Below, piece by piece: positions 5,548 to 16,356 of a stretch of DNA of 61,541 bases. How positions within the stretch are numbered: the first letter of the stretch is position 1; the number at the start of each line of letters is the position of its first letter. The notes under the pieces were generated by a model. The model made no database searches and had not been told where the DNA came from. It saw nothing but the letters and a program-made list of their open reading frames with translations. Position numbers and translations under genes: made by a program. Source of the stretch: Thermoproteota archaeon (lineage in GTDB: Archaea > Thermoproteota > Thermoprotei_A > EX4484-217-1 > JAPDJV01); assembly GCA_029258925.1 (NCBI GenBank), contig JAPDJV010000036.1:1-61541 (forward strand), read 5' to 3'.

Positions 5548-6216
5548 GACATTCCCTAATCTTTATAGGGGCCTCGCATTTAAAATTAGTTTCTACATCT
5601 ACTTCCGGCTTGAAACACTATATTGTATAATACAGTGTTTCCATGAGGTCCGCTCGATCTACTTTTTAGATCGAAACAGTTTTGACTCGCATAATGCTGT
5701 CGTAAATTCGAGTTCCGCCCTTGTGATGTTACTCTCCCGAACATTTTTCGTATTTGGTAATAAATTTTATGAATGGTCTTATGCATATAATTTATATACT
5801 GTTTCTAATTGTTTGTAATACCATGGACAGGTACCTACTACTGTTCGGTAAAAACGCCCTACCCGATGACATACATCGCCCTACTAGAAGAGACCCCTAT
5901 GACGTGTCCTTTCATTCCCAGAGGAAGACGATGAGAAGAGGGGAGAGTGCTGTTGAAGCTTTGGGAACAATACATACTCCTAATCAACGGGATCCCGGAC
6001 ATGTTAGCGTTGGATTATAGAGGCCTGAGGTTAATGAGTGGAGTAGAAACCGGGCTCTTCGTAACGTTTACTAGTAGCTCTAAGGTCTTCATGCAAGGTG
6101 AAGAGCGTGTAGATAAGGCTAACTCCATGAATTTAAATGGAGTTGGATGCTTGCTCTAGGTGTCCGCACTCAAACTCGATGCTCCAACGTTATTGAACAT
6201 ATGTTAGGTGAATAGA
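5548..6216. other. Gene-poor stretch upstream of the decayed glutamate synthase operon
   Basis: No intact gene can be defended. From about 5822 to 6159 the plus strand has coding-like pieces in different frames: one begins MDRYLLLFGKN at 5823, another (5947-6159) reads with LWEQYILLINGIPDMLALDY. They may be the remains of a gene that belonged to the decayed operon that follows, but I do not recognise a family. The last bases hold AGGTGAAT, a ribosome binding site for the ATG at 6217. Confidence 0.4.
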
Positions 6217-7594
6217 ATGCGGTGTAGAGCGAGAAGCGTCTTCAAAAGGTATCGCATAGAGGTCAGAGAGACCCCTCCGAAGGTTAAGTTGCCTCCGAAG
6301 TTCCTAGTTAAACGCTACAATAACTGTACAAACGAGCAGGAATGCGTTGTAGTGTGTATATATGGTGTTCATAGAGTAAACGAGGATGGAACTATTGCTG
6401 AACCCATAAGCGAACTGTGCAGAGGGTGCCACCTATGTGTTTTAGCATGCCCAAAGAGAGCGATATCGATAGAGGTTAACCCTGAGTTTTTGAGGCTGGG
6501 CATCGTACTTCACTGCGGATAGAATAGAGAGAATCTACTTCGAAACCGAGACAGGTAGAGTGCCGGTTTCGGGAGCAGGGTACGGAGGCCCGTTTGCAGG
6601 GAGAGGATTCGACGCTATTTGGTTCGATTTCTCGGAGATCGTTAGGCCGACGAGAGACGGAATTCACGGCAGAGAGTACATTTCGACATCAGTTGACTTA
6701 GGTAGGAAGCTGCCGTACCTCGAGTTCGACGAGAATGGCGCCCTGCTATCGGATATTCCGAAGAACATTGAGATCCCTATACCGATGATCCTCGACGCTC
6801 CAACTCCCTGCGCTAGAGACAAATACCTTCAGCTATCAGTAGTGAAAGCCGCGTCTAAGCTTGACACCTTTGCCATCGTGAGAGCTGAAGGTTTCTGCGA
6901 AGAGCTAAATCCATATGTTCAATGGGTTATTCCGAGGATTCCAGCCGACTGCATAGAGGAATCAGCTGATTTGATTGCCGCATCGAGGATCGTTGAAATA
7001 GATTGCTGTGGCGATGAGGATTTCAAGGGGATCTTCGAGAGGGTGAAAGAAGAGAATCCCTCGACGCTGGTATCGTTCCGTTTCCCCTATAGCGACAGAT
7101 CTGGAATAGTAGCGGAGGCGCTGGTGAGGATCGGTGCTGATATCGTTCACTTTTACGCGAGCGATAAAAATGTTGAAGAGGGGCCCGATTACATTGTAAA
7201 GGCCATTCGATCTGTACACTTACACCTCGTCGACAGGGGGATTAGGGATCAAATAACATTCATTTCCAGCGGTGGACTGGCAGAGGCTGCACACGTCCCC
7301 AAGTCGATACTCCTCGGAGCAGACGCCGTCGCTATTGGTCTGGCATACCAGGTGGCCCTGGGTTGCAGGGTTTGCTACGGTGAGAGAAAGTCTGAGTGTT
7401 TGGTGGAAGTGGGGAGCGCGGATATCGAGTGGGCTGTGCAGAGAATAATGAACATGGTAAACTCGTGGAGGGATCAACTGCTCGAGGTTCTCAGCGGAAT
7501 GGGGATGCGGGAAGTAAGGATACTGAGAGGTGAGGTCGGCAGGGCAATGTTCTACGAAGAACTCGAATCTAAAGTATTCGGTGGTGCAGAGTGA
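6217..7594 (+). pseudogene. Glutamate synthase domain-2-like protein (FMN barrel paralogue), frameshifted
   Basis: Two frames together give one protein. The first part (to about 6503) has cysteines of a ferredoxin-like domain (CTNEQECVVVCIYG, CRGCHLCVLACP). The second (from about 6500 to 7594) has the archaeal glutamate-synthase signature GAGYGGPFAGRGFD and SEIVRPTRDGIHGREYIS, then a degenerate FMN-type barrel with SSGGLAEAAHVPKSILLGAD. The shift falls near CTGGGCATCG (about 6500-6508), where adding one base restores the frame. Even when intact it would be the regulatory or paralogous subunit, since the fully conserved barrel is the next gene. First of at least five adjacent damaged genes. 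TGA of this gene overlaps the next ATG. Confidence 0.82.
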
Positions 7595-9126
7595 TGCAGA
7601 GACTATTTCACTTACCAGAAGTGAAGCCAGCACCCTCCAAGTACCCTGGGAAGATAGAGAAGTACGAGGTTTTACTGGATAGATCTAAGTGTATAGCGTG
7701 CGGTGCTTGCACAGAGATTTGCGAATACATAGCATCCGCCCACTCGACTATGAAGCGTTTAAGAAGTCTGATGGCTACATTCGTTTAGTCAACCCCGAAA
7801 AGTTCTGTAAGGGTGTTGAGTGTCAGCAGTGCGTGAGGGTTTGTCTAACTAATGCTTTGTAAAGTTAGGTTAAACCCGCAGTACCTGGCACTCTGGGATT
7901 CCCGCTGGTCAGCCGACCTCATACTGTCAACTTGGGAGCAAGCTGAAAGCGGAGATGTTTCAGGAAGGTACGAGTATAGTGTCGGAAATTCAGGGGGAGG
8001 ATTTGACAGGATAATGTTCGACTTTGAGTTGAACGAGGATCCACGTGACTTCGAGTTGTTCGATGAAGACCGCGATACTTCCATAGTCCTCAATAAGAGG
8101 GACGACAGGAGGCCTAGAATAGAGATCCCAATTCCCGTATATAGCGCAGACATGTCCTTCGGGTCCATAAGCTTAAACGTGATGCTTGCGAGAGCTAAGG
8201 CTGCCAAGGCCTGGAACACGTTTGTGGGTACTGGTGAGGGCGGATACCCGGACGAGCTGATACCATACAAGGACCACGTAATAACACAAGTTGCCACAGG
8301 CCATTTTGGTGTGAATGCTGAAACCATAAAAAGAGCGAGAATCGTGGTTCTGAAGTATGCGCAGGGTGCAAAACCGGGTCTCGGCGGCCATCTACTAGCC
8401 GATAAAGTTACCCCCGATGTGGCTAGGATAAGGGAGACTGTTCCCTACGTCAGCTTGTTTTCACCGTTTCCATTCCACAATGTCTATTCTGTGGAGGATC
8501 ACTACAGGCACGTGTAGCTAATAAAGGACATAAACCCCAGAGCTCTCGTTGCAGTAAAAGTATCTACTCCCATCGACATCGACATGGTTGCTATCGGGAT
8601 CTACTATGCGGGGGCAAACATCATCCAAATAGATGGGGGTTGCGGAGGAACCGGAGCGGCGCCAGACATAGCTAAGAGAAACATCGCTATGCCCATAGAA
8701 TATGCGATCCCCATAGTCCATAACTACTTGGTGGGAGAGGGCGTGAGAGAAAAAGTGGTGATAATGGCTAGCGGGGGGATAAGGACAGCCTTCGACGTTG
8801 CCAAGGCGATTGCCTTGGGAGCCGACGGAGCTGTGACTGGAACTGCAGAATTAGTGGCACTCGGCTGTAAGAGGTGTGGGAACTGTGAGAGGGGAGGGGG
8901 TTGCCCGTCAGGAATTGCTACAACTGATCCTGTGTTAAAGCATTTAATCAATCCCGACTGGGGGGCTCAAAGGATAATAAACATGTACCGTTCGTGGAAG
9001 AAGCAGAGGAGCTATATTCTAGCAAGACTAGGCTTGGAGAACATTAGAGAGTTGCGTCCAAGCGGGATAGTCAAGTTCAAAAATAGTAGGTTTAACCACT
9101 TGATCCATCTAGACCATTTGAGGTGA
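7591..9126 (+). pseudogene. gltB2: Glutamate synthase FMN domain (GltB domain 2), frameshifts and in-frame stop
   Basis: Ferredoxin-dependent-type glutamate synthase domain 2, which would take ammonia from glutamine and make glutamate on an FMN barrel. A ferredoxin-like head (CIACGACTEIC, then in another frame CKGVECQQCVRVC) precedes the barrel: SADMSFGSISLN, KPGLGGHLL, DGGCGGTGAAPDIA, MASGGIRTAFDVAKAIALGAD, and a CGNCERGGGCP cluster-binding segment. Damage: a frame change near 7725-7733, another near 7856-7861, and an in-frame TAG at 8515-8517 between DHYRHV and LIKDIN. A conserved-looking Gly before DSRW is also Trp. Its GTGA stop overlaps the next gene's start. Confidence 0.87.
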
Positions 9127-11549
9127 GAGACTTGGTCCTCCAGCTATCTAGTAGGATAGCGACTTTAAGGAATGCGTTGCTAGGATCACTGAACGCCCCG
9201 GTCTACAAGAGCGCTGTTGAGGGCGGATGCGGCGTTATAGGAGTTGCCTGCACGGTTCCCGTAAAAGGAAGACACTTGTTGCAACCATTGCTGCAAATGC
9301 ATAATAGAGGGAATGGGAAGGGCGGAGGCATTGCGGCTGTAGGTCTTTCCCACAAGCAGCTGGGTGTTTCAAAGAGAGTTTTGAGGGAATACTACATATT
9401 GCAAGTAGCTTACCTAGACCCAGAATATAGGAGGAAAGTGGAAGAGGAGTTCATAAACCCCTATTTCACTATCGAGGTCGCCGAAAAAGTTCCAACCATT
9501 CAGGATTACAAGAGCGTGGGATTGGAGGTAAAGCCTCCGGATGTCTGGAGGTATTTTGTCGGAGTTGACGAGGACGTGTTGAACAGGTTCATTGAGAGAA
9601 GCAACCTCGAATGGCTGGATCCCCGTAGGGCGGAGGACGAGTTCGTCTATAGGAACAGCTTCGCCTTAAACAAGAAGTACTATGCTTCACTAGGCGAGAA
9701 AAAGGCGTTCGTGGTGTCTCATGGGAAGAACATGATAGTTCTGAAGATTGTGGGATACGCTGAACAGGTCATAAGATACTATCGATTAGAGGAGTTTGAA
9801 GCCAACATCTGGATCGGACATCAAAGGTATCCAACGAAAGGGAAGGTCTGGCATCCAGGAGGAGCCCACCCATTCATAGGGGTTCACGACGCGCTAGTTC
9901 GCAATGGAGACTTTGCGAACTACTACTCGATGACGGAGTACTTGAAACAGAGAAATATTTATCCACCATTCTTAACGGACACGAAGGCAGCCGCCCTTTA
10001 CTGGGATCTCTTGACAAGGGTTTACCAGTATCCTTTAGAATATGCGATTGAGGCTATTGCGCCGACGACGGAGAGAGATTTCGTTATGTTACCTGAAGAG
10101 AAGAGGAGAATATACAAGGCAATCCAGGCAACGCATATTCACGGATCACCTGATGGACCATGGTTCTTCATAATCGCTAGGAACGACCCCTACAGGAGGT
10201 GCTTCCAGCTCATAGGCATAACTGAGACTTCGATGCTGAGGCCTCAGGTTTTTGCACTTCAGGAGGGATATGTGAAGATAGGTATCATAGCATCTGAGAG
10301 ACAGGCAATCGACGCCTTACTCAGAAGCCTTGCGTTAGAGGATGACAGATTTTGCCCTGTAGCAGATCTTTACTGGTATGCTAGGGGAGGTAGCTATACT
10401 GATGGAGGCGCCTTCATTTTTACCATAGACTACGACTCTAAAGACCTTGTATGCACAGATAAATTCGGGAAAGTGATCTCCGTGGCTAAGTGGAAGAAGC
10501 CTTGTAGAAGTATTTATAGAATGGTCGTTAAGCACAATCCGAAGAATATATCGCGTGAACTGGACTACGTATTATCGAAAAAGAAGAGTTATACTGAAAT
10601 ATATGATTACATTGCGAAGAATATTAAATATTGGGATTACGATGAAGTTTTCTATGTTGCAGAATCGTTGAAGATTTTTGCTAATAGGGGGGACGAGGAG
10701 AGAACTGCTGCTATCAAAGCCTTAACGCTTCTAATAGATCGAAGATACGATGTGGGCGACAAAAAGAGGAGTTGCATAGTGTCGATATTCGAAGAGAAGC
10801 TCTTCGAGCTCTTCAGTTCAATACCCCCATAGACTCTGGTTTAAGCAGCGCCTACTGTCTGATTGATTGGGATAGTAGAAATAAGCTGAAACCACCCGTA
10901 GATCCCCGGCAGACATTAGTCATCGATGTATACGACTTCGAGCCCGAGGGAGATGGAGGTGTCTGCGGCTTTTTAGATAGAGCCTGTAGATTAGGATGGA
11001 GAAGAATTATAGCCTACAATTTCAAGGGGCAGAGGAACTTCGGAGCCGGTCTTGTGTCGAGAGATGACATGGGAATCGACATTTATGGTAGAGTCGGCGA
11101 ACTGCCTCGCTGCCTTCGCCGATGGCCCAGAATTCTACGTGCATGGAAGCGTTAAAGACTCAGTGGCCTACTGCTTCAGGTCAGGGAAAATGGTGATCTT
11201 CGGGGATGCTGGGAAAGCGTTTGGATATGGTGCAAAGGGTGGAATAGCTTTCATCTTAGGAGATCTCATTGATAGGCCTTTAATCAACGCTGTGGGAAGC
11301 GCTACTGCAGTAGTAAACGGTTCATGTAAGGATTACATGGGGGAGTCCTTTATGGCGGCAAACGGCCTCATAATCATTAACGGGGTGAAGTTTGACGAGA
11401 ATGGAAGACTTGTTGAAGAGGAAACACCTTATCATGGCGGAAACCTATTCTCCTTGGCTGCTGCCGGCGCTGTTTTCCTAAGAGACCCCTGGGGAACTGT
11501 TAGCAAAGACCAGCTTAATGGTGGTAAAATAGTCTCACTGACAAAATAG
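9123..11549 (+). pseudogene. gltB1: Glutamate synthase glutaminase (GltB domain 1) plus GXGXG domain (domain 3), frameshifted and 3'-truncated
   Basis: Residues 1-569 are an uninterrupted class II glutamine amidotransferase domain with the catalytic Cys in GGCGVIGVA and the substrate segments HQRYPTKGK and RNGDFANYY. The frame breaks in a C5 run at about 10826 (four C's would restore it) and again at about 11095-11105. Beyond, the GXGXG repeat domain of glutamate synthase is clear (YGAKGGIAFILG, NGSCKDYMGESF). The gene stops at SLTK, missing the normal C-terminal tail, because a deletion joins it to the inside of etfA. Confidence 0.87.
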
Positions 11550-11671
11550 GTACTGAACTATCAGCGGTTCTCATAGGATACGGTGTTAAGCATCTTGCAC
11601 GCGAGCTGATAAGCTATAGTGCCGATAAGGTTTACCTAGTGGAGCACGAGTGTCTTAGACATTACATAACG
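11550..11671 (+). pseudogene. etfA: etfA fragment, 5' side (split by IS607 element)
   Basis: Frame GGT ACT GAA CTA translates as GTELSAVLIGYGVKHLAREL and then SADKVYLVEHECLRHYIT, typical of the N-terminal domain of electron transfer flavoprotein alpha subunit (FixB). The first 30 to 40 codons are missing: the fragment is fused directly to the truncated gltB end. It stops at the insertion-sequence boundary and continues at 13637. Confidence 0.8.
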
Positions 11672-11680
11672 CTACCGTTT

Positions 11681-11716
11681 CCCGTCCTAGGTCATTGTAG
11701 GTCTCGCTAGGACGGG
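11681..11716. repeat. Terminal hairpin of the IS607 element; probable end of the omega RNA
   Basis: CCCGTCCTA (11681-11689) pairs with TAGGACGGG (11708-11716), with an 18-base loop. It lies 3' of tnpB on the minus strand, the place where TnpB guide (omega) RNA is encoded in related elements. The stretch 11717-11850 is rich in further G/C stems overlapping the tnpB 3' end, consistent with such an RNA. Confidence 0.6.
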
Positions 11717-11745
11717 TTGTGCCTCTGCTCCGTGCTTCACTGTGG

Positions 11746-13035
11746 CTACAAGCCACTCCACACGGGGGTCATGGGCACCCTTCGTCCCAACGGCATGGGG
11801 GACACATCTAGGATGTACTTTCCAACTAGGTTTATAGCACCTATAATGTCTCGGTCATGTATGAACCCGCATCTAGGACACTTCATTAGTCTTGGTTTCC
11901 ATCCGTTCCTCTGGGCATAGCCCTTCATCAGGATAAGTTTAGAACTACAGATTGGGCAAGTAGAGGAAGTATATGAAGGATTAATAAGAATAAAAGGAAT
12001 GACATATCCCTCTAGTTTCTCAATTATCAACTTATGTATTCCACGTATGCTTGACTGTTTTAACCTATGGGCATCAAGTCCATTTAACTTCCTATTTTTC
12101 TCTATAACCTTATCTTGGAATCTCTTAGGTAGTTTCTCAAGAACAACTACACCATCCTTAACAATATCAATAACGATTCTAGCGAGTTTCTGCTTAATGC
12201 CCTTCTTAACGTTTCTCTCTCTAAGTTTCATCAATGCTATCTTGAGTCTTCTATTATCTTTAACGCCGAAAACTCTACTCCATTTTCGCTGAATTCTAGC
12301 CCTCCTATAAGCGTATCCAAGCACTATCTTAGAGAAGTTTGTAACTATAGTTGCTGCTTTATTTTCGGGATAGCAGTATATTGTTACGTTGTTCTCGTTA
12401 ATATCAATACCATAAACTTTTGATGAATTCGACGTCCTAATAACTTCGACTTCTCTAGTAAAGACCACGTAGAGGTATAATTTATTCTCTACAAGCTTCC
12501 ACCTAGTTGAACTCCTAAGAATCCATCCACCATTATAGTATCTCCAGAACAGTTTATGGAATTGTAATGGTATGTTTATCCATCCCTTACGGGTAGCTAT
12601 CCTTACCCCCTCTAACGTTAATTTCCATAACTGGTTATCACATCCAACACTCCACTTCTTAACAACTGGCTTATCCGTCTTAGCTAATCCCTTCTTCTTA
12701 AGCTTCTTAAAACTCTTAAGTCTCTGAGATGCATCACGTATAGCCTCATGAATGTAGTGAGATGGAAGGTCTGGATATTTCTCCCTAAACCTCTTATAGA
12801 GCAGCTTCTTAGCCCTTGTCCAAGAACTAATGCTATTACTCCACATGCGCTCAAGAGCTTCAATAAGTATTCTACCATATACTTGGTAGATGTAACTTAA
12901 TACCTTAATCTTAGTCTTAGTTAGCTGTAATGATACTAATACTACTGTCCTCTCAAGGGTCTCCGATTGCTTGTTCAACTGCTTCCACCACCTTCCTATA
13001 CTTATGACTACGCTCACCATAGATTCTTGAAGCAA
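11746..13035 (-). CDS. tnpB: TnpB RNA-guided nuclease of IS607 element
   Basis: TnpB cuts DNA under direction of an RNA made from its own 3' end and helps the element persist. The RuvC-like triad is visible: D211 (YGIDINEN), E300 (VVVLEKLPKR) and D396 (HDRDIIGAIN). The zinc ribbon has CPIC and CPRC pairs. Homology seems to begin near residue 28 (ERTVVLVSLQL), so the true start may be TTG at codon 20 rather than the first ATG; the 83-base overlap with tnpA is then shorter. No disabling mutation seen. Confidence 0.88.
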   Translation of the reverse strand: MLQESMVSVVISIGRWWKQLNKQSETLERTVVLVSLQLTKTKIKVLSYIYQVYGRILIEALERMWSNSISSWTRAKKLLYKRFREKYPDLPSHYIHEAIRDASQRLKSFKKLKKKGLAKTDKPVVKKWSVGCDNQLWKLTLEGVRIATRKGWINIPLQFHKLFWRYYNGGWILRSSTRWKLVENKLYLYVVFTREVEVIRTSNSSKVYGIDINENNVTIYCYPENKAATIVTNFSKIVLGYAYRRARIQRKWSRVFGVKDNRRLKIALMKLRERNVKKGIKQKLARIVIDIVKDGVVVLEKLPKRFQDKVIEKNRKLNGLDAHRLKQSSIRGIHKLIIEKLEGYVIPFILINPSYTSSTCPICSSKLILMKGYAQRNGWKPRLMKCPRCGFIHDRDIIGAINLVGKYILDVSPMPLGRRVPMTPVWSGL

Positions 13036-13585
13036 ATGATGTAACTATCTCTATCAAGTCCTCGACCAACTCTTGGTAGAAGTCTTTAGCTGGTTCTTGG
13101 AAAGCTACTATGACTTTCACTCCGTGAGCCTTGAATAATTCTTCAAGATATTTGAATCCAAATCTTGTGAGTCTGTCTCTATATGCTACCAACAATATAT
13201 CAAATTCGTGTTTCTTTGCCATTTCTACTAGCTTCCATAGTCCTCTCCTATCTTCCTTAAGACCACTAGCAATGTCTCTTACTATCCCCACTAGCTTCCA
13301 ATTGTTTTGCTCTACATACTTCTTTAGTGCTTCTAACTGATTCTCTAACTCTTTCTTCTGATTAGCTCCACTAACACGAGCATATATTATTACACGAGCT
13401 ACTTTAGGAGTCTTCATCTCTTCTACTGGTTGTCCGAGTAAACGCTTGACTTCACTTTCTGGTATTTTCCACCTACCACCAATATTAACTGCTCTAATCT
13501 TGCCCTCCTTAATCCACCTACGGAGGGTACGATTAGCAATACCTAGAATTTCACAAACTTCCCTAGTACTGTAATGACGCTCCAC
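12953..13585 (-). CDS. tnpA: IS607 serine recombinase (transposase A)
   Basis: A 210-residue protein with an N-terminal MerR-type helix-turn-helix (STREVCEILGIANRTLRRWI) and a small serine-recombinase domain. The nucleophile is S72 in YARVSGANQ; the conserved segment AYRDRLTRFGF follows. The MerR-like domain at the front is diagnostic of IS607 transposases. Encoded upstream of tnpB with overlapping frames. Confidence 0.93.
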   Translation of the reverse strand: MERHYSTREVCEILGIANRTLRRWIKEGKIRAVNIGGRWKIPESEVKRLLGQPVEEMKTPKVARVIIYARVSGANQKKELENQLEALKKYVEQNNWKLVGIVRDIASGLKEDRRGLWKLVEMAKKHEFDILLVAYRDRLTRFGFKYLEELFKAHGVKVIVAFQEPAKDFYQELVEDLIEIVTSFASRIYGERSHKYRKVVEAVEQAIGDP

Positions 13586-13636
13586 AGACCATCTCCAGAA
13601 TAAAAAGACCTACACCGACCTATAAAAACCTTTACG

Positions 13637-14455
13637 TTGGAAACTACACCTCCACCCTACGCGAGAGTGCTAACAGACCTAATAGTTAAGGAGAGGCCAG
13701 AAATAGTGCTCTTCGCTGCCAACACTACTGGCCGAGACCTAGCGCCGAGGATTGCTGCTAGGCTTGAAACAGGGCTAACCGCGGACTGCACGGACCTAGA
13801 CATAGGTGACTACGAGGACGTGTTAAGCGGGAAACTTTACAGGAATGTTCTATACCAGATCCGTCCAGCATTCGGCGGAGACATTATGGCAACAATAGTT
13901 ACTCCAGAACAGCGTCCACAAATGGCTACTGTACGACCTGGAGCTTTCGAGCCGCCAGAGAAAGATCCGAGGAGAGAAGGGGAAGTAATATCCTATAGAG
14001 TCGAGTTCGAAGGCGAAGACTTGGCCGTGGAAGTACTTAAAGTGGTCAGAGAACAGGAGGGGGTTGATTTGAGGAACGCTAAGATAATAGTCAGTGGAGG
14101 CAGGGGTGTCGGCGGCTCTGATGGTTTCAAACTGATAAGAGAGTTAGCGAGGGTTTTAGGGGGTCAGGTCGGGGCGTCGAGAGCAGCAGCTGTCGACGCA
14201 GGCTGGATTCCTATAGCCATCAAATTGGGTTGACGGGGCAGAACAGTTAAACCAGACATTTACATAGCATGCGGTATTTCCGGAGCAATACAGCATGTTG
14301 TCGGAATAAAGAATTCTAAAATTATAATTGCCATAAATAATGATCCAAATGCATCGATATTTGACTACGCTGATTACGGCATAGTAGGAGATCTATTCGA
14401 GGTTATACCAGTGCTCATAGAAAAGCTGAGAAGGGGCAATGGTGGGGGAAATTAA
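13637..14455 (+). pseudogene. etfA: etfA fragment, 3' side (electron transfer flavoprotein alpha), with in-frame stop
   Basis: Reads LETTPPPYARVLTDL onward, with the ETF alpha landmarks TTGRDLAPRIAARLETGLTA, RPAFGGDIMATIV and the FAD-binding SGGRGVGGSDGF. An in-frame TGA at 14231-14233 cuts off the end of the FAD domain; after it the same frame continues [20 protein letters not shown] and ends at TAA 14453-14455. Intact, the protein would carry electrons, together with a beta subunit not seen in the window. The ATG-less start is the insertion-sequence boundary. Confidence 0.88.
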
Positions 14456-14701
14456 AATTTCATAGAACACTATAGACTTGCGGGCATGGTGCGCGAGGAG
14501 TTAAAAACAGACATTACATGGTTCCCAGTTTAAGTTTCTGCACAACATCGTATCTTCTTCGAGAAACCTGTAAATCCAAGTATATGTGGAGTAGTTGTGT
14601 CAAGCGTCTCCGAAACAGCCTGTAATACTTAAGAGCGCCCATAGTGGGAAATCGTTGGATCGCGTAAAACTATAATAGTCTACACTAGCACCTATGTATT
14701 T

Positions 14702-15537
14702 ATGGAGACCTATAAAATAGGCTTAGCGCAAGTACATTCCCTATTGGGAGACGTAGAGGAGAACCTAGCAAAGCATCTAGAATATGTGGATAAGGCTCGC
14801 GACCTGGGGATAGATATCCTGGTTTTTTCCCGAGCTATCCCTAACAGGGTATCTTTTAAGAGATTTAGCCTATGAACTATCAGATAAGTGTCTAGATGCG
14901 CTGAGGGAGATAGAGAAAGCATCTAGAGGCATGTCCGTGCTCGTAGGTGTTGTGGAAGAGCCGAGACTCGGTATATACAGGAATTCTATAGCCGTTATCT
15001 GTAATGGAAGGCTTGAAGGCTTCGTCCCTAAACTTTACTTACCTAACTATGGCCTTTTCGAGGAGAGCAGGTATTTCAAGGAGGGAGATGTTGGAGATGT
15101 TAGAGTTTTTGAGCACAAGGGTCTGAAGTTTGGTACCGTTATTTGCGAGGACGCGTGGCACCCGGAGCCCGTCGAGTTACTTGCTCGGCTGGGAGCAGAT
15201 TTAGTTTTCATAAACTCTTCTTCACCGCTCAGAGGATTATACGGCGAGGGTGATATTTTCATAGAGAGTGTGGGAAGCCATTAACATCACACGTGCTGTC
15301 GAGAACACTATATACATAGCCTTCGTAAACAGAGTGGGGGTTGAGGACGAGGAATGTTTCTGGGGCGGCTCCATGGTTGTAAGCCCGGATGGAGAGGTAG
15401 TGGCTAGGGGGAGGAAGCTGGATGAGGATTTAGTAATAGCCGATATAAGCATCCACGTAATCCGTAGGGCTAGGAGGTTCAGCTCTTTTAAAGAGCATAG
15501 AACAGATATTCACAAGATACTGGGTGGTATTTCATGA
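14702..15537 (+). pseudogene. Nitrilase-type glutaminase of NAD synthesis, frameshifted
   Basis: Starts METYKIGLAQVHSLLGDVEENL, a carbon-nitrogen hydrolase that would supply ammonia to NAD synthetase. The frame breaks in a T6 run near 14823-14831, at the position of the catalytic Glu (an extra T; removing it gives VFPELSLTGY). The catalytic Lys (KLYLPNYG) and Cys (TVICEDAW) segments are intact. A second break near 15265 gives a premature TAA in front of VWEAINITRAVENTIYIAF. Its TGA overlaps the ATG of nadE (ATGA), so the two were an operon. Confidence 0.83.
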
Positions 15538-16356
15538 GTTTGCCGCCCATAAACGCCGAGCGGGTGGCAGACTACATTGCACGTAGGCTTAGATGGTATG
15601 TTCTAGACTACGCGGGAAAGAAAAACGGTGTAATCGGAGTTAGCGGCGGCGTGGATTCAGCTGTCACAGCTTACCTCACGGTTAGGGCGCTCGGACCAGG
15701 GCATGTATACTGCTATCTCCTTCCCTCCGAGGCTACACCTAGAGAAGATGTTGAAGATGGTCTAGAGGTTATCAGGAGGTTGGGAATACCTAGGGGGCAT
15801 TGGGAGATCATAAACATTAATGGAATAGTCCAGGATTTCGAGAAATTGCTGGGGGAGATGACAAAAATTGAGCGGGCAACGTTATAGCACGTGTAAGGAT
15901 GATCGTCTTACATCAAAGGGCATAGGGTTGGTTATAGGAACAGGTGATAAGAGCGAACTATTACTAGGCTACTTCACCAAGTACGGCGACGGCGGTGTGG
16001 ACGTGTTACCCATAGGGGGACTCTACAAGACCCATGTAAGACAGCTAGCTAAGTATTTAGGCGTACCGGATAGAATAGTGGAGAAGCTGTCGTCGCCTAG
16101 ACTCTGGCCCGGGCAAACAGCAGAGGGCGAGCTTGGAGTCAACTACGAGACCATAGACTCCGTTCTATATTACCGCTTTGAGAAGTGGCTGCCTGAGGAG
16201 GAGATAGCAAAAACCCTGAATGTACCGAGAGAGATGGCCGATAGAATACTGAATATGGTAGAGAAAACTCAGCACAAGCGATTAATGCCCGAGGTCTTCC
16301 ATATAGGTTATAGAGATATAGGCTCGGATTGGAGATACCCGAGGCAGTGGTTCTAA
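15534..16356 (+). pseudogene. nadE: NAD+ synthetase, frameshifted with small deletion
   Basis: N-type ATP pyrophosphatase that amidates deamido-NAD. The ATP loop SGGVDSAV is intact in the first part. Near 15872-15905 the frame shifts twice: the middle frame reads GNVIARVRMIVL, and then the frame with GTGDKSELLLGYFTKYGDGG resumes, leaving several residues missing between. The C-terminal part, with QTAEGELGVNYE, is otherwise normal. The protein cannot be made in one piece. Confidence 0.85.

Follow-up and report, generated by a model that had tools for sequence, protein, structure and literature searches.

Remains of a seven-gene operon

Positions 6208-16356 of the window, that is, of the entire 61,541-nucleotide stretch of DNA analysed here, hold the remains of a seven-gene nitrogen-assimilation operon, as judged by comparison with intact orthologues. 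Very probably the region is the remnant of a recently dead operon, which would have encoded an EtfBA-linked glutamate synthase and a glutaminase-NadE pair, was probably gained horizontally, and was released from selection and then broken. This explanation builds on the lesions, the missing etfB, the young age of the decay, the glutamate dehydrogenase and nadE genes that stay intact elsewhere and a second glutamate synthase that is broken as well. In the source assembly, a 1.75 Mb genome in 56 contigs (98.4% complete), the window corresponds to contig C9, and the fragments within 6208-16356 were identified from their reading frames and from domain scans.

The original gene order was g1, g2, g3, etfB, etfA, a nitrilase-type glutaminase gene (g5) and nadE (g6), and all surviving pieces lie on the forward strand. 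The g1 pseudogene (6208-7594) encodes a 4Fe-4S ferredoxin domain and a GltB2-like FMN domain and carries a frame break near 6502, while its orthologue in the related locus L096 is one uninterrupted open reading frame of 462 residues. A ferredoxin domain and a GltB2 domain (PF01645) are likewise found in the g2 pseudogene (7594-9126), which is broken near 7735 and 7855 (placed within about 7730-7743 and 7850-7858, respectively) and has a TAG at 8515; its orthologues are open and 515-522 residues long. The PF01645 FMN synthase domain is recognised in the g2 fragments at 139 and 155 bits against a cut-off of 20.4, versus 298 bits in an intact relative. The g3 pseudogene (9123-11546), a fusion of the class-II glutaminase (GltB1) and GXGXG (GltB3) domains, has breaks near 10826 and 11100 and has lost its 3′ end, while the orthologues in L093-L095 are single reading frames of 833-841 residues. 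The class-II amidotransferase motifs GGCGV, RYPTKG and NGDFAN are invariant across seven g3 orthologues, and the g3 protein appears to be divergent, as it gave no Pfam glutaminase match and no PDB match by profile. Downstream, the etfA pseudogene (11546-14455) is truncated at its 5′ end, interrupted by an insertion sequence and stopped by a TGA at 14231, g5 (14702-15537) is broken near 14825 and 15262-15272 within a gene for a nitrilase-type glutaminase domain, and nadE (15534-16356) is broken near 15860 and 15923.

In total, tblastn with intact relatives against the window reveals nine small frame breaks spread over g1, g2, g3, g5 and nadE, and the alignments with L096 and L094 run on in frame across the positions of the two in-frame stops. 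At the deletion junction (11543-11546, to which no strand applies) the homology to g3 ends at about 11543 and that to etfA begins at about 11546, from about residue 34, so that g3 has lost its 3′ end, etfB is gone entirely and etfA lacks its first 33 or so codons. The corresponding stretch between g3 and etfA in the relatives is about 1 kb long and includes the whole of etfB (270-271 residues), which occupies the deleted position in L093-L096, and no ETF domain was found anywhere else in the genome. The preliminary description had listed at least eight frame breaks, two stops, a deletion and an insertion sequence in six decaying genes. All of these lesions are indeed present, with the breaks now numbering nine, and the genes are in decay; the operon, however, originally had seven genes, the wholly lost etfB having been overlooked. 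Most of the operon genes carry disabling lesions that the orthologues do not have.

The IS607-like insertion sequence (11688-13622, reverse strand) lies inside etfA and is bounded by 17-nt imperfect inverted repeats at 11688-11704 and 13606-13622. It encodes a serine recombinase (12953-13585) with a PF00239 resolvase domain and HTH_17/MerR domains, and a TnpB-like reading frame (11746-13035) assigned from the reading frame itself and its C-terminal Cys motifs. The combination of a serine recombinase bearing a MerR-type HTH with TnpB is that of the IS607 family. The element is the sole full-length copy in the genome, and a burst of one multi-copy insertion sequence was therefore rejected as the cause of the decay.

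Relatives and origin of the operon

Among 229 genomes of the class, this one included, no other genome gave a g3 orthologue beyond weak similarity, and relatives from the order or class were accordingly discarded as a source of orthologues; viral contigs likewise gave no relative of the operon. Across the phylum, g3 orthologues with 59-84% identity are present in eight genomes. The loci L093-L096 keep the order g1-g2-g3-etfB-etfA, and the next gene is guaA in L093-L095 and a nitrilase gene in L096. The nearest relative of the operon is L096, found on contig C184 of G549, a genome of another class, and in the g3 tree the two group together (100/100) inside an archaeal clade of Bathyarchaeota, Asgard and Brockarchaeota sequences. 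Because the PolB of G549 is only 55% identical to that of the window, versus 64% for the same-order genome G001, it appears that either the operon was transferred horizontally or C184 is a misbinned contig. In L096, too, a single frame break divides g3 (G549:C184, 3713-3830), with the other operon genes of that locus open, and the PolB gene of G001 (L112, G001:C1:17630-20014) has an in-frame TAG within the match.

More widely, g3 relatives are encoded in 508 confirmed stretches from archaea and bacteria, judging by their names largely anaerobes, and the g1-g2-g3 order is kept in the loci examined. The neighbours of this core vary (L116-L195) and include guaA, carA/carB and glnA, as well as an FAD/Fe-S oxidase gene in ANME-1. 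EtfBA adjoins the core in 6 of the 88 loci scanned, an archaeal subset, and two pairs of these represent the same record.

Age of the decay

Counted over the columns that do not vary among the outgroups, 45 amino-acid changes are private to the window and 40 to L096, and the tip branches in the g3 tree are of nearly equal length (0.14 versus 0.15), which indicates recent decay. This relative-rate count was used in place of dN/dS, which is unusable for the window/L096 pair in g1-g3 because synonymous sites are saturated. From the two nonsense mutations, some 43 base substitutions are expected (0.56% of sites), and with them about 15 extra missense changes at invariant columns; the excess actually observed is 5, with a standard error near 9, and is consistent with this expectation. 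The lack of a detectable amino-acid excess fits a young age of the decay. Nine small indels beside some 43 implied substitutions make an indel-rich spectrum, which by analogy fits a thermophile: in Sulfolobus acidocaldarius, indels were found in 95 of 108 pyrEF mutants (PMC2688765), and from its class the present host is presumably thermophilic.

Remaining nitrogen and NAD capacity

The genome retains an open glutamate dehydrogenase gene (C28, 430 residues) and a second, intact nadE (C6). A second glutamate synthase, of the canonical archaeal kind, is encoded on contig C30 (L027, G000:C30, 871-2896; gltB3 and gltB2) and is broken too: in its GltB2 gene (about 1570-2896), the only other one in the genome, comparison with three relatives places in-frame stops at 2266 and 2744 and a loss of frame near 2581. 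The genome retains no GltB2 (PF01645) that is intact over its full length, and the loss of a glutamate-synthase route, as earlier proposed from the operon, thus goes further than had been claimed. The accompanying proposal for NAD needs correcting: with the intact nadE on C6, NAD synthesis is not lost, and only the glutaminase-paired copy has gone. As both the operon and the C30 glutamate synthase are broken, the cell probably depends on glutamate dehydrogenase in place of a glutamine-fed route.

Sequence error and other explanations

In principle, low read coverage could have produced the breaks as errors of sequencing or assembly, with a working operon behind them. Several of them fall at short homopolymers (C5 at 10826, T6 at 14823); the indel/missense ratio is on the high side and missense changes are not in excess, as a local patch of indel errors would predict. 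Assembly artefacts also exist in the contig: its start (1-292), within the LSU rRNA, holds a 68-nt inverted repeat with perfectly matching arms (1-68 and 225-292), is matched by Rfam on both strands and probably arose as a chimeric join or a foldback. Against this, about 1.08 Mb of the genome was compared with 0.70 Mb of G001, and the 237 conserved control genes (194 kb aligned) contain just 7 lesions, in 3 genes; being conserved, such genes underestimate true pseudogenes, yet they are a fair gauge of sequencing error. In the operon, 7.7 kb contain at least 10 point lesions; under a Poisson model with the rate of the control genes, such a number has a probability of about 6e-13. The window genes at 31.6-46.7 kb that have a homologue in the G001 sequence sampled (14 matches) show no lesions at all, and within the window the detected lesions end at the limits of the operon. 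Moreover, indel errors do not account for the two stops, which are base substitutions, for the 1-kb deletion or for the complete insertion sequence, the glutamate synthase on a different contig is broken too, and even with all frames open the system would be incomplete without an EtfB in the genome. Sequence error is thus an unlikely source of the lesions, and an intact, merely misread operon is improbable. A genuine loss of function of the entire operon is well supported, in agreement with the preliminary description, which had favoured real loss over random error. Its further point that the damage is confined to one operon stands for the window; genome-wide, the C30 glutamate synthase and 3 of the 237 control genes are also lesioned. 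These three are a 255-residue gene of unknown family with three stops (L269, 1079-1789), a GMC/FAD oxidoreductase-like gene (L270, 126-1352) and a small 121-residue gene of unknown family (L263, 8628-8990), the latter two with stops or frame breaks.

An origin as a contaminating or chimeric fragment, already a pseudogene in another organism when it was assembled into the contig, would be in line with the lack of the operon in the rest of the class, with its closest relative in G549 of another class and with its GC3 of 0.52 versus 0.41-0.44 for two window housekeeping genes. The operon, however, lies within a 61.5-kb contig with core genes on either side, and the broken glutamate synthase on C30 is also nearest to G549, which suggests a shared gene history over one chimeric join; this origin is even less likely than sequence error. 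The least credible proposal is that the fragments are still used, either through translational recoding or by separate expression of domain fragments. While long open fragments remain (569 residues in g3 and 366 in g1) and protein evolution was constrained until recently, the breaks interrupt conserved domains of five genes and lie in different frames, etfA is interrupted besides, and EtfB is missing from the genome.

Proposed function and relation to known systems

In the preferred reading of a recently broken operon, the reaction, the electron route, the horizontal gain and the reason for the release would be as follows. The intact operon would have encoded an EtfBA-linked glutamate synthase, in which the N-terminal-Cys glutaminase of g3 would free ammonia from glutamine and the ammonia would be tunnelled to the FMN site of g2, with electrons likely arriving via EtfBA and the 4Fe-4S domains; the adjoining glutaminase-NadE pair would use that pool of glutamine, too. 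The operon was probably acquired horizontally and then held under purifying selection, from which it would have been released, most likely because glutamate dehydrogenase and the second nadE cover its functions. After the release, the nine frame breaks, two stops, the etfB deletion and the insertion sequence would have accumulated.

From its sequence, the g1-g2-g3 core can be read as a glutamate synthase whose electron partners vary, and its neighbours guaA, carAB, glnA and nadE would place the module in ammonia assimilation. It is conceivable, if somewhat doubtful, that the intact g1-g2-g3(-EtfBA) module represents a class of glutamate synthase, coupled to ETF or ferredoxin, that has gone unrecognised and has spread horizontally among archaea and bacteria, most of them anaerobes, and that the present genome is a natural knock-out losing both synthases in favour of glutamate dehydrogenase. 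No description of an ETF-linked glutamate synthase and no report of an assay of the g1-g2-g3-EtfBA module were found in open-licence papers; the Clostridium GltAB with ferredoxin-NAD reductase activity was considered as a precedent and rejected, being the usual NADH enzyme.

The operon shares the class-II glutaminase, the FMN (PF01645) and ferredoxin domains and the GXGXG domain with the archaeal split glutamate synthases, the domains of which are encoded as separate genes (mentioned in PMC8097209). In contrast to these, it fuses GltB1 and GltB3 in one gene, and has EtfBA and a second, weakly scoring ferredoxin-GltB2-like paralogue, g1. The bacterial NADPH-dependent enzyme (gltB/gltD; PMC8097209) likewise combines glutaminase, FMN and GXGXG domains, and ammonia transfer between the domains would be a common trait; however, the NCBIfam model PRK11750 gives only 87 and 99 bits on the operon fragments against a cut-off of 1047, and the intact operons show no GltD gene and carry EtfBA. 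An EtfB/EtfA pair encoded beside a flavin oxidoreductase recalls the Bcd-EtfAB and Ldh-EtfAB complexes, although here the partner would be a glutamate-synthase-like flavoprotein, of which the part of PMC6085437 consulted makes no mention.

That a dispensable operon which has spread horizontally should decay is nothing unusual. The ETF-coupled module is of greater interest: it belongs to a glutamate-synthase-like module of wide occurrence, the electron partners of which vary and include EtfBA in some archaea. The region captures a pathway loss at an early stage in an archaeon, and its mutation spectrum, with frameshifts prevailing over missense changes, resembles that of reporter genes in thermophiles. 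The frame breaks, stops, deletion and insertion sequence in a dispensable operon are those of ordinary pseudogene clusters, from which the present case differs in that two separate glutamate-synthase loci are hit in one genome, and the loss of both synthases, together with the ETF-linked module, lends the case moderate interest.
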